Shown here: piece by piece, positions 8,019 to 41,700 of the stretch | Layout of the letters: the number at the start of each line of letters is the position of its first letter | Position numbering within the stretch: the first letter of the stretch is position 1 | NCBI GenBank assembly: GCA_014804485.1 | Contig: JAAUZT010000006.1 | Span: 31,181-95,180 of the forward strand | Source of the DNA: Lachnospiraceae bacterium | GTDB taxonomy: Bacteria > Bacillota > Clostridia > Lachnospirales > Lachnospiraceae | Length of the DNA: 64,000 nucleotides | Reading direction: 5' to 3' | Made by a program: the position numbers and the translations under genes | The notes under the pieces: generated by a model | What the model was told of the DNA's origin: nothing | Databases searched by the model: none | The model's input: the letters and a program-made list of their open reading frames with translations, nothing else

Positions 8019-8106
8019 AGAATGTGTCATAGTGAAAGGTTTTATTCTTGTATTATAAATAGCGAATGTTATACTATCTATTGATTATACGAGATCTAAG
8101 GTGTCC

Positions 8107-8258
8107 GCCCGGATGAAAGCTAATATCTACGGAGCCGCGCTTTCGCTCCGCAAAAAGCGTAACAGACGCTAAACTCGTGAGTTGCTTCGCAACTCATAAC
8201 CTCGTTAAGCGCTGACGCTTTTTGAGGAGCTCCTTAAGAAATTAGCTTTCATCCGGGC
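8107..8258. repeat. Long intergenic inverted repeat B (152 bp)
   Basis: Perfect 18-bp arms, GCCCGGATGAAAGCTAAT and its exact complement, end the element. Inside are nested stems: CAAAAAGCG with CGCTTTTTG, GAGTTGCTTCGCAACTC, and short GGAGC/GCTCC pairs. The whole could fold into a branched structure of about 150 nt on either strand. No ORF lies in it. It occupies most of the 400-bp gap between the divergent SDR and zinc-ribbon genes. Confidence 0.65.
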
Positions 8259-8264
8259 TGGGTA

Positions 8265-8293
8265 TTGGTTACGGTTGGATAGCGATTTATAAT
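8265..8293 (+). promoter_or_regulatory. Sigma-A-like promoter before the zinc-ribbon gene
   Basis: TTGGTT, 17 bp, TATAAT, immediately after inverted repeat B and about 65 bp before the start codon. Confidence 0.45.
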
Positions 8294-9342: not shown

Positions 9343-9424
9343 AATTACGCAATTTGAGCCAGAGCCTCAAATATGATTTGAGCGCGCTATAATCGCGGTA
9401 AGCTGTTCTGGCATGGAGGTATCT

Positions 9425-10303
9425 ATGAAGGAGTATTTTCATTATTTTAAATGGCTTTATATTATATTAGGGATTGTCCTGATTTTGTACATAGTGATAA
9501 GCGGTGGACAGAGTGCGGTTTCCGGTGCTGCCAACCGCCAGAGGAGCAATACGGAGTGTACAACGGATGAAAGGGTGTTTGATTACGCCGATGTGCTGAC
9601 GGATAAGGAGGAAGATAAACTGCGCAGCCTGATTGCCAAGCGGGAGAAACAGACCGGCTGTGATATCGTGCTGATTACCCTGCAGGAGTCGCTTAAGGAC
9701 TATGCGAGAGAGATCGAGCCAAACGTGAGCTATGATGAGTTCGTAAGGGTCTATGCGGAAGCGTTTTATGAGTCTCACAATTTCGGTTATAATAAGCCGA
9801 ACGGGGACGGCGTCCTGTTAGTGGATAACTGGTTCCGTGAGGATGATGGCAGGATCTATACATGGTTCTGTACGACGGGAAAAGTCAAGGATGCCTATAC
9901 AAGCGAACAGATCGATCATATTCTGGACAATGTATACCGTTATGTAGAGCATAATCCTTACCGCGCATATAGGACATATGTGAATGATTTCTACCATGAT
10001 ATGATGGGAACCAGGCTCTTTAATGTGTACGTGCCGGCTTGGGTTCCGTGGGCTATAGGGATCGTATCAGCTGTTATTTTTATACTGTGCAACGGCAGAT
10101 CCAAGCGCGGAGCGAAGACGACGACCGCGACCACCTATGTGGACGGAATGGAACCGCAGTTCCGAGTCAGAGAGGATCGCTTCCTGCGTAAGAGCGTGGT
10201 ACAGCACAGAATCCAGTCAAGCGGCAGCGGCGGCGGAGGCCGTAGCCACAGCGGAGGCGGAGGAGGCGGAGGAAGCCACGGAGGCGGCGGCCACAGCAGA
10301 TAA
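9425..10303 (+). CDS. TPM-domain (YgcG-type) membrane protein with Gly-rich tail
   Basis: About 292 residues. An N-terminal membrane helix (WLYIILGIVLILYIVI) is followed by a TPM domain (VFDYADVLTDKEEDKLRSLI, then TGCDIVLITLQ), a second helix (WVPWAIGIVSAVIFILC), and a basic segment ending in a Gly/Ser/His-rich tail. This is the usual YgcG layout; TPM domains occur in thylakoid and bacterial membrane proteins, some with acid-phosphatase activity or a role in repair of membrane complexes. I chose the ATG at 9425 because ATGGAGGTATCT places GGAGG 5 bases before it; the track ATG at 9413 overlaps that site. The His/Gly tail may bind metal (inference). Confidence 0.75.
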   Translation: MKEYFHYFKWLYIILGIVLILYIVISGGQSAVSGAANRQRSNTECTTDERVFDYADVLTDKEEDKLRSLIAKREKQTGCDIVLITLQESLKDYAREIEPNVSYDEFVRVYAEAFYESHNFGYNKPNGDGVLLVDNWFREDDGRIYTWFCTTGKVKDAYTSEQIDHILDNVYRYVEHNPYRAYRTYVNDFYHDMMGTRLFNVYVPAWVPWAIGIVSAVIFILCNGRSKRGAKTTTATTYVDGMEPQFRVREDRFLRKSVVQHRIQSSGSGGGGRSHSGGGGGGGSHGGGGHSR

Positions 10304-10319
10304 CAGCATTAGAATATCA

Positions 10320-10553
10320 AAGGCAGATTGCATAAAATGTTCACGCAGTCGTCTTGCGTAGGAATATGAGATTTTCTTAATATTCCGTTCTATATCCAGC
10401 AATTTCGGGACACGGATGTCCCGAAAAGCCCGACATGAGCCCGGATGGCGAATAGAGGGCGGTTGCGTCCGCAGCCTCAGCCTAATCGGAATATTATTAG
10501 AAAATCCATATGACGAAGCCCGACACAAGGGAACATTTTATGCAATCTGCCTT
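10320..10553. repeat. Long intergenic inverted repeat C (234 bp)
   Basis: Perfect 23-bp arms (AAGGCAGATTGCATAAAATG with TTC at its inner end, and the exact complement) lie 188 bp apart. A second inner stem pairs GATTTTCTTAATATTCCG with CGGAATATTATTAGAAAATC, with a two-base bulge. A tight hairpin TCGGGACACGGATGTCCCGA lies in the middle. The element fills the gap between the convergent TPM and rpsT genes, is non-coding, and is the best formed of the three palindromes in the window. Confidence 0.7.
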
Positions 10554-10605
10554 CCACATATACTAAGGCTTAGGGCACTTTTGCACCAAATCTGATAAAG
10601 AACAA

Positions 10606-10639
10606 AAAAACACTTCCCATGACGGTAGGAAGTGTTTTT
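10606..10639 (-). terminator. Bidirectional intrinsic terminator after rpsT
   Basis: AAAAACACTTCC pairs perfectly with GGAAGTGTTTTT, with A-tracts and T-tracts on either side, so it can work on both strands. It lies about 60 bp past the rpsT stop codon. Confidence 0.85.
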
Positions 10640-10699: not shown

Positions 10700-10963
10700 T
10701 TACGCCATCTTATTAACGGCAAGCGTAAGACGGGATACTTTTCTCGCAGAAGTATTCTTGTGATAAACACCCTTCTTAGTAGCCTTGTCAAGCGCGGATG
10801 TAGCAGCGGTAAGAGCTGTCTTGGCAGCTGCCTGATCACCTGATTCAATTGCAGCATATACTTTCTTGATCGCTGTCTTAACGCCGGACTTGATCGCCTT
10901 ATTTCTGTCAGCTTTCGTCTTGTTTACTAAGATTCTTTTCTTTGCAGATTTGATATTAGCCAT
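10700..10963 (-). CDS. rpsT: Small ribosomal subunit protein bS20
   Basis: An 87-residue, Lys/Ala-rich helical protein beginning MANIKSAKKR, the standard S20 start, and ending TLAVNKMA. It binds 16S rRNA early in assembly of the 30S subunit. I chose the ATG at 10963 (minus strand), where CGGAGGTGTGATC gives a good Shine-Dalgarno site; the track start two codons upstream is a GTG inside that spacer. The gene lies divergently from gpr, the usual arrangement in Firmicutes. It has its own promoter at 11126-11154 and a leader of roughly 150 nt with a strong hairpin. Confidence 0.97.
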   Translation of the reverse strand: MANIKSAKKRILVNKTKADRNKAIKSGVKTAIKKVYAAIESGDQAAAKTALTAATSALDKATKKGVYHKNTSARKVSRLTLAVNKMA

Positions 10964-11018
10964 GATCACACCTCCGATTCCGATATTCTTTTCATCACTC
11001 GCAGCAAAGCTGCTCGTT

Positions 11019-38745: not shown

Positions 38746-41700
38746 ATGAAGAGAATGATAAGAAACAGAAAGAAACTGAATGGCAAGCGTATTGCAGCGG
38801 CGGCAGTGGCGGGACTGTCCGCTGCCGCTGTTGTTATGACAGCGGTACTGTCTGATGTGATGGAGGCGGAAGCGGCGGATACTTTGCTTGGTATCGAGAA
38901 GCTTCGTACCCGCTATAAAGAGAGCGGACGTGAATTCGTTATTCTGGAAGTTGTACCTGACAGGGCAGCGGCGGAGATCGGATATCTTGTCAGTGGTTAT
39001 GAGCCCATCCTGTGTGAGTGGGATGAGGAGGAGATGGTCTGGAGTAACTGGAAGAACACTTTATGCGAACTGCCGGCGAGAAGCCGTGAGGCCTTCGTAG
39101 AGGATAAGAAAAATGAACTGCGGGAGTACTATGCAAAACAGGGGATTGAGAAAAATTTCCCGGTGGAAGCCATAGAGGACAAGTACGAAGAGGGAGAACC
39201 GAGGCAGGAGGGTTTCGAGAGGATCGTATCCGATGGCGCTAGGAAAACGGGCTGGTTTGAAAAGATCAGTGGTACTCCGGCGGAAGGAACAGACAGATAT
39301 CAGGTTGCTTTTGACTACAAGGGTCCGTTTGGCAATGAGAGTTTGGAGTTCGAAGATACTTTGTATTATACAGTTTCAAGTGCTACCAAGATAACTTCAA
39401 CTATGAAGATAGAGTCCGACAGACCCATATATGTCAAAACAGGTGACATATATGAATATTGCGGCACATGGGAAGAAGTCAATAGTGTGGTGACAGCGTC
39501 TTTTTCGGAGGATTCGTCGGAGAAAGATGAGGAAGAAGAGGAAAAGCCTAAGCCGGATGACGGAAAGAATGATGGCGATAATAAAAATGACGATGGCAGC
39601 GGCGATGAGAATAGCGGTGACAGCGGCAGCGGTGACGAAAAAGAGGATAATGACGGCAGCGGCGACGACAGCAGTAACGAGGATAACAACGGCGGCGACG
39701 ACAGCAGTAACGAGGATAACAATGGCGGCGACGACAGCGGCAACGAAGATAACAACAGCGGCGACGACAGCGGCAACGAAGATAACAATGGCGGCGACGA
39801 CAGCAGTAACGGAGATAGCAATGGCAGCGGCAACGGGGATAACAACAGCGGCAGTAATGACGACAGTAACGGTGGTTCCGACAGTAACGATCAGCCGGAG
39901 GGTGCCGGCAACGATATAAGCAATGATGATGTTGCGAAGACAACGACATCCATTTTTGCATCTCTTCGAGAGGGCAAGTGGTTTAAGCTGGTTGCGGATG
40001 ATACTCCGGCGGACGGCTCCGGTGACAATACAGGAGCGGACGATCAGCTAAAGCCCAGTGAAGGCGAGGGTTCGAACAGTGATTCTGACGTAGATAAGCC
40101 GGATAAGGACGACAATACGGATAAAGATCAGTCAGATTCGGATGGCAACACAGATCAGGATAATACAAATCCGGATGATGCAGACGAGGATGATAGTGCG
40201 GATTCGGACGAGACAGAAACGGATGATAACAGCGATCCGGATAAGGATGAGCCGGCGGCAGATGACCCGGTTGAAGATGATGAAAGTGATAAGAATACGT
40301 TCGCAGTGGGAGAGGCAGGGGAATATTATCTGGTTGCCTTTGAGAGACAGTCTGCCGAGGAGGATCCCGCACTCGGTACACCCATGTATGCAGTAAAAGG
40401 TAAAAATGATATCGTATTGAGTGAAGATGGCGAGTATGTATTTGTGGAATGGGATGAAAGTATGGGCTATAACCAGCCCATACAGGAATACACTTTCGCC
40501 GGTAAAGAGATCTGGTGTAAGAATACATTCAAGAGTAACGAGTGGTTTAAGAAGTATGTTCTCAATATGGATAAGGCCGATTACGATGATTTCCGTATCA
40601 AGGTATTGACATTCACTCCACAGGAACTCAATGACATGGAGAAGATACCGAACTTTGATTTCCTTTATCTTAATTCCGGATTAAGAGTAGATGGACTTGA
40701 AGACGGCGGAGATATTTCAGGCAATGATATCGACACCGGAGATGACGGCAATACGGATAACGGCGACGCCAACGGAGACGATGGAAATAATGAAGGATCC
40801 GGAAGCGAAAATAAGGTAAGCGCTGATGCCGGCAATGAGATAATGACGAAGCTGTTGGCGGCCGAATCTTTACAGGGCCAATGGCGCAGGCTGGTTGCAG
40901 ACGATAATCCGGAAGGGAACACCGATGGATTAGGAACAGACAGTACCTTAGAGAATGACAACGGTTCCGATACGGATAGCGATTCCGCAACTGCCGAAGG
41001 TTCCGATGCGGACAGCAATTCCGGAGACAGCGGAGATTCTGATAAGGACAGCAGCTCCGGGAATGTCGGGGATTCCGATGCAGGCAGTGATTCCGAAAGC
41101 AACGGCAGTTCTGACACGGGCAGCGGTTTGGAGAATGCCGGTGACTCTGATACAGACAGCAATTCTGAGAATAGCGACGACTCTGAGACCGGCGATGACA
41201 GCGGTTCAAAGGATGACGATGATGCCGGGGAAGTCAGTATCTCGGAGAATAATATCGGTTCTGATAAGAAGACTGTTAAGGCATCTTCCGATGGCGATAG
41301 TGATATCGTTGACGAAAAAGTGCATAACTATTCGGCGGATAACGATCTGTCTGATGAGGTGTTGAAATATTTCTTTGATATAACGATCGCAGGCGCGAAA
41401 CCGTGTCTGGTAGATGGTTCTATTCTGTATGCGAAAGATGACAGTGGTAGTATCGCGGTCAATGAAGAACTTCAAAACACCAATATATTCAGACTTTCCG
41501 CGATGCTCTGTCAGGATAATCTGAGCGAATGGTATGAGCAGCATCGTGCTAATTATACGAGACTGTCCGTGACACAGTTAATGAACGGCATTGTGGAGGA
41601 TGCGGATAAGAACTTTGTGGAAGAGCAGGTCTACTGCAGATTCGGCAATGGCAGTGATTCCATCATTAATGACCTATTCTATGACGCAACGATTTATAAG

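Follow-up and report, generated by a model that had tools for sequence, protein, structure and literature searches.

A TwoAYGGAY RNA core within a probable decayed transposable palindrome of a Lachnospiraceae bacterium

The TwoAYGGAY motif (Rfam RF01731) is presented in the passages devoted to it by Weinberg et al. in 2010 (PMC2864571) as a probable RNA that is not cis-regulatory and has no assigned function, and the lines on it in PMC4333381 predict that its AYGGAY hairpins bind CsrA. Rfam files the family under the type Cis-reg. Among dispersed DNA families, bacterial MITEs are short and free of ORFs, and they combine terminal inverted repeats, target duplications and many copies. The bcr1 repeat of the Bacillus cereus group is dispersed in units of ~100–400 bp with mobile features and tens of copies per genome, its mobility resembling site-specific recombination at a TTTAT motif (PMC6542083). 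The REP/BIME palindromes, as treated in the relevant part of PMC3733652, are dispersed, intergenic units of 20–40 bp with GTAG or CGTC tags. Our analysis places a TwoAYGGAY core inside a palindrome that, judged by its sequence and its relatives, is very probably a decayed, non-autonomous, transposable element of the MITE type.

The palindrome lies in a window of 64,000 nucleotides, the whole stretch of DNA analysed. The original prediction described it as a unit with perfect 23-bp ends, an inner stem and a central hairpin, located without an ORF between convergent genes and with a separate terminator about 50 bp away, and each of these features was recovered (Table 1). The inner arms are complementary at 23 of 23 positions across a 188-nt spacer; by our own estimate, a perfect arm pair no more than 250 bp apart would arise by chance anywhere in the 64 kb with a probability of ~1e-7 to 1e-6. 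The folding z-scores of the palindrome are –10.5 (DNA, plus strand), –9.6 (RNA, plus strand) and –10.5 (RNA, minus strand), equalled by none of 200 shuffles. The open reading frames across it are mechanical overlaps, none of them credible, and the convergent neighbours are a TPM-domain gene (9413–10303, plus strand) and the gene for ribosomal protein S20 (10700–10966, minus strand). When the element was searched for an intrinsic terminator, a GC-rich stem followed by a T run, only a weak, chance-level site was found, the strong one lying outside at 10606–10639 on the minus strand, 53 bp from the palindrome. The limits 10320–10553 hold for the palindrome itself but not for the element, which is wider and still shows what is left of an outer terminal repeat and a target duplication. 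The guess of a structured RNA was borne out by the core, which is the sole Rfam family in the whole window at curated cut-offs and aligns to model positions 1–168 of 168, far above the family cut-off of 43 bits.

Table 1. Features of the element, in positions of the window
Feature	Position	Strand	Evidence
Whole element in its present state, left end eroded, right end degenerate	10305–10592	+	Comparison with ~304-bp intact copies and the empty site in L088/L090
Left 7-bp target duplication AGATAAC, which includes the TPM-domain gene's stop codon	10298–10304		Empty site in L090, a single AGATAAA
Right 7-bp target duplication TGATAAA	10593–10599		Empty site in L090 and 7-bp duplications within the family
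Right outer terminal repeat, degenerate, GCACTTTTGCACCAAATC (consensus GCACCTTTTGACACCCGAATC)	10575–10592		Flanks of other copies
Left inner arm	10320–10342		Inverted-repeat match
Right inner arm, fully complementary to the left arm	10531–10553		Inverted-repeat match
TwoAYGGAY RNA core (RF01731), 104 bits, full model length	10354–10521	+	Covariance model
Inner stem, 5' side	10370–10387	+	Folds and alignment of 87 copies
Inner stem, 3' side	10487–10506	+	Folds and alignment of 87 copies
Hairpin 1, loop ACGGAT (AYGGAY) at 10412–10417	10403–10426	+	Sequence; plus-strand G-U tolerance
Hairpin 2, loop CGGAT here, ACGGAC in other copies	10428–10460	+	Sequence comparison of copies

Related sequences are scattered through the host genome (a Lachnospiraceae MAG of 3.97 Mb in 58 contigs, 85% complete), as the idea of a non-autonomous palindromic element had anticipated. 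The genome holds 33 RF01731 matches and, at the DNA level, ~40 places, arms included in most, with identities between copies of ~95% at most. Comparison of the flanks gives intact copies of ~304 bp with GATTCGGGTGTCAAAAGG...CCTTTTGACACCCGAATC at their limits, and the outer repeats in the copy flanks read GATTCGGGTGTCAAAAGGTGC and its reverse complement. Pairs of GATTCGGGTGTCAAAAGG, the terminal inverted repeats expected of a MITE, are present on many copies and eroded in the window copy, and shorter pairs of outer ends, down to 38 bp, occur among the matches listed. Two minimal 38-bp palindromes (G036, contig C17, 39887–39924; G027, contig C83, 7880–7917) consist of the two outer terminal repeats alone. 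Tandem RF01731 copies in the same orientation, 346 and ~440 bp apart, were seen at 88164–88676 of contig C2 in G010 (L072, L084) and at 1426–2030 of contig C83 in G005.

Target-site duplications of 7 bp were found within the family. Among 40 bounded copies, some orthologous between species and not all independent, 12 match at 6–7 of 7 bases compared with 1.2% of mismatched pairs, and the other 28 match at fewer than 6 of 7, without a recognisable duplication. For lengths of 3–6 and 8–12 bp, the same 40 copies gave no excess comparable to that at 7 bp. The targets are TATA-like and varying, including CTATACA, CTATATG, ATTATAG and TTATAAA among others.

Empty sites are present as well. At the locus between the TPM-domain and S20 genes, the element is absent from two sequences of sister species, L090 (CAMWMS010000053.1), where the target occurs once, and L088 (JAAUZY010000032.1), and L085 (CAMWXF010000027.1) has kept the outer parts and the inner-arm tips, representing an internal-deletion derivative. 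At a second locus, CTATACA stands on both sides of the copy in G000 (L014), G081 has a single CTATACA without the element, and in G066 two CTATACA enclose a short remnant left by internal deletion. In total, ~19 insertion sites are common to the host and sister species.

These shared sites also record changes within the element. Two of them, the window site (window copy and L087 versus L086) and a second site (L013/L225 versus L202), have unmoved outer flanks but opposite orientations of the core within the inner arms, as seen in draft MAGs in which a palindrome core could be mis-assembled. At the second site the sequences differ more, so that the core may instead have been replaced there. Most orthologous sites have the same core orientation, scored by the best strand only since a palindrome matches both strands. 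The arms change in a mirrored manner: orthologous sites, in comparisons that share some species, show 17 double complementary changes versus 16 single ones, and G036 contains nearly identical cores within arms whose length differences are mirrored.

The arms and the core hairpins behave differently with regard to RNA pairing. Over 87 distinct copies, arm mismatches comprise 18 G-U and 24 A-C, similar numbers that give the arms no RNA strand; selection on an RNA was considered as the source of arm covariation and was rejected on account of this lack of G-U bias together with the mirrored arm indels. The two hairpins of the same copies show 19 G-U versus 4 A-C mismatches, a count to which a single base pair contributes ten cells and in which related copies are non-independent, and this points to the plus strand as the RNA and to the hairpins as carriers of the RNA signal; the TwoAYGGAY core would presumably be transcribed. 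The covariation sought for the prediction is present, and the arms evolve as DNA. The family is multi-copy and conserved, with compensatory change, the opposite of a single-copy, unconserved sequence.

Other explanations of these observations have to be weighed. A vertically inherited, non-mobile structured RNA or cis-regulator, multi-copy by chance, would agree with its Rfam filing as Cis-reg and with the many copies at orthologous sites in sister species, but empty sites at which the target stands once contradict it, as do the 7-bp duplications and the antisense placement of copies, among which no shared class of neighbouring gene was seen, and we consider it highly improbable. Inversion of the core in place at two sites could instead be due to an invertase that uses the inner arms as its specific sites. 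However, the arms vary between lineages and within G036 and yet stay self-complementary, unlike a recombinase site, and inversion is rare (2 of ~19 shared sites), which leaves an invertase quite unlikely. Template switching, by comparison, is an established cause of arm homogenisation and spacer inversion in inverted repeats (PMC8604942); it predicts mirrored arm changes, and it would explain both the arm identity and the core inversion observed here.

The placement of copies relative to genes bears on the role of the RNA. Among the 61 copies that remained once known orthologs were set aside, with genes called from ORFs and single calls liable to error, 34 lie between two genes antisense to the RNA strand and 7 between two sense genes (p = 2.5e-5), the remainder lying between convergent (9) or divergent (11) genes, and the stop-codon side is nearer to the copy (median 58 versus 124.5 bp). 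Given this antisense placement, the Rfam type Cis-reg is not supported. The same bias, the nearer stop-codon side and a minus strand that folds no worse than the plus strand would suit a 3'-end element, the minus strand forming part of the upstream mRNA and stabilising or ending it, as proposed for REP-like palindromes; but the element carries no strong terminator, the real one lying outside, the hairpin G-U bias favours the plus strand, and the orientation bias may also reflect selection against sense insertions, so that such a role seems unlikely. A trans-acting RNA is similarly doubtful, although it would be compatible with mobility: its AYGGAY hairpins would bind CsrA (RsmA), and the dispersed copies would act as a CsrA sponge. 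In this regard, there is a published match of the motif (PMC4333381). The host genome carries csrA, the hairpin G-U tolerance indicates the plus strand, and the hairpin GACAYGGAUGUC resembles the CsrA SELEX consensus, RUACARGGAUGU. On the other hand, csrA shows no association with the motif (among the genomes searched, 49 of 53 carriers and 23 of 27 non-carriers contain it), one genome of 98% completeness, G402, carries the motif without a csrA match, no promoter-like site was found in the region scanned, and loop 2 of the window copy is one base short of AYGGAY. No literature joining MITE, CsrA and RF01731 was found.

For the MITE-type transposable palindrome that we favour, a transposase supplied in trans, presumably of the DDE type, most likely used the terminal repeats GATTCGGGTGTCAAAAGG for recognition, and copies would have inserted at TATA-like 7-bp targets with duplication of the target. 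In an inserted copy, template switching of DNA polymerase from one near-perfect inner arm to the other is the most likely reason that the two arms stay identical and that the core is occasionally inverted in place, and internal deletions leave small remnants. No kilobase-sized or autonomous element with matching ends was found among the matches listed in 60 mostly draft genomes of the genus, and the transposase may lie elsewhere or have been lost. Viral contigs contained no autonomous element, their two matches having no element around them, and phage and plasmid records gave no match to the element.

Further repeats were observed in the window. A second dispersed palindromic repeat at 8094–8272, with 22-nt arms (8107–8128 and 8237–8258) that are 95% complementary, occupies ~40 places in the host genome and has no Rfam match at curated cut-offs. 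The left flanks of L015 and L030 (CGTCGC..CGCTCC) resemble part of this second family, and the two families may adjoin. At 39617–39876, about six 33-bp repeats follow one another within sequence rich in GAC, AGC and GGC.

The RNA core extends beyond the host and its sister species. RF01731 occurs in 21 of 37 genomes of the genus sample, with 1 to 33 copies each, in none of 24 genomes from other families of the order, and in 36 of 391 genomes (23 of 222 genera) across the class, 27 of the 36 above the family cut-off; the class survey scored no more than seven candidates in each genome, and its copy numbers are lower bounds. At the loci inspected by eye across the class, the core mostly sits at the tip of lineage-specific complementary arms. 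In the closed genome G120, the elements terminate in CTGC-RATTCGTAATAT and in its complement, with duplications of ~8 to 11 bp that were read by eye, such as GTACATAAAA, ATACGCAT and ATAAAATTTTC; computation at a fixed offset gave a moderate signal only, because the duplication lengths vary. Five elements of G120 (L298, L299, L301, L305 and L306) have ends of this type and are 388–606 bp long. No autonomous element of kilobase size with G120's own repeats was found in this genome. Since the ends differ, at least two terminal-repeat systems carry RF01731. We tentatively suggest, as a possibility, that TwoAYGGAY travels repeatedly as a passenger in palindromic transposons with different ends and duplication lengths (7 bp here, ~8–11 bp in G120), and hence probably with different transposases, the RNA being kept at the tip for helping the element, for example by titrating CsrA or another RNA-binding protein, or by lessening the impact of insertions on host mRNA.

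An orphan RNA family of 2010 is now placed in mobile palindromes, and its genomic matches would then be copies of mobile elements with a strong antisense bias rather than regulated genes. Insertion sites common to several species preserve, as a natural record, how arms are homogenised and cores inverted in place. The presence of one RNA family in differently ended elements raises a testable question, namely how the RNA benefits the element.

Compared with TwoAYGGAY as described, the window core is a full-length representative, and its palindromic arms, terminal repeats, target duplications and mobility are absent from the passages on the motif in PMC2864571; no description of mobility of the RF01731 family was found in the portions of the open-access literature on TwoAYGGAY that were consulted. 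The inverted repeats subject to template switching share arm homogenisation and spacer inversion with the element but have spacers of a few bases and lie in yeast genes (PMC8604942), whereas the spacer here is ~190 bp and belongs to a mobile element. The likeness to bacterial MITEs extends to all the traits listed at the outset, the differences being a conserved structured RNA, homogenised arms, a core that inverts and no autonomous relative found. With bcr1 (PMC6542083) the element shares size range, dispersal, mobile features and copy number, but instead of the TTTAT insertion motif it has varying, TATA-like 7-bp duplications and outer repeats. Like the REP/BIME palindromes in the part of PMC3733652 concerned, it is dispersed and intergenic, but in place of their short, tagged units it forms a ~304-bp element with 7-bp duplications.
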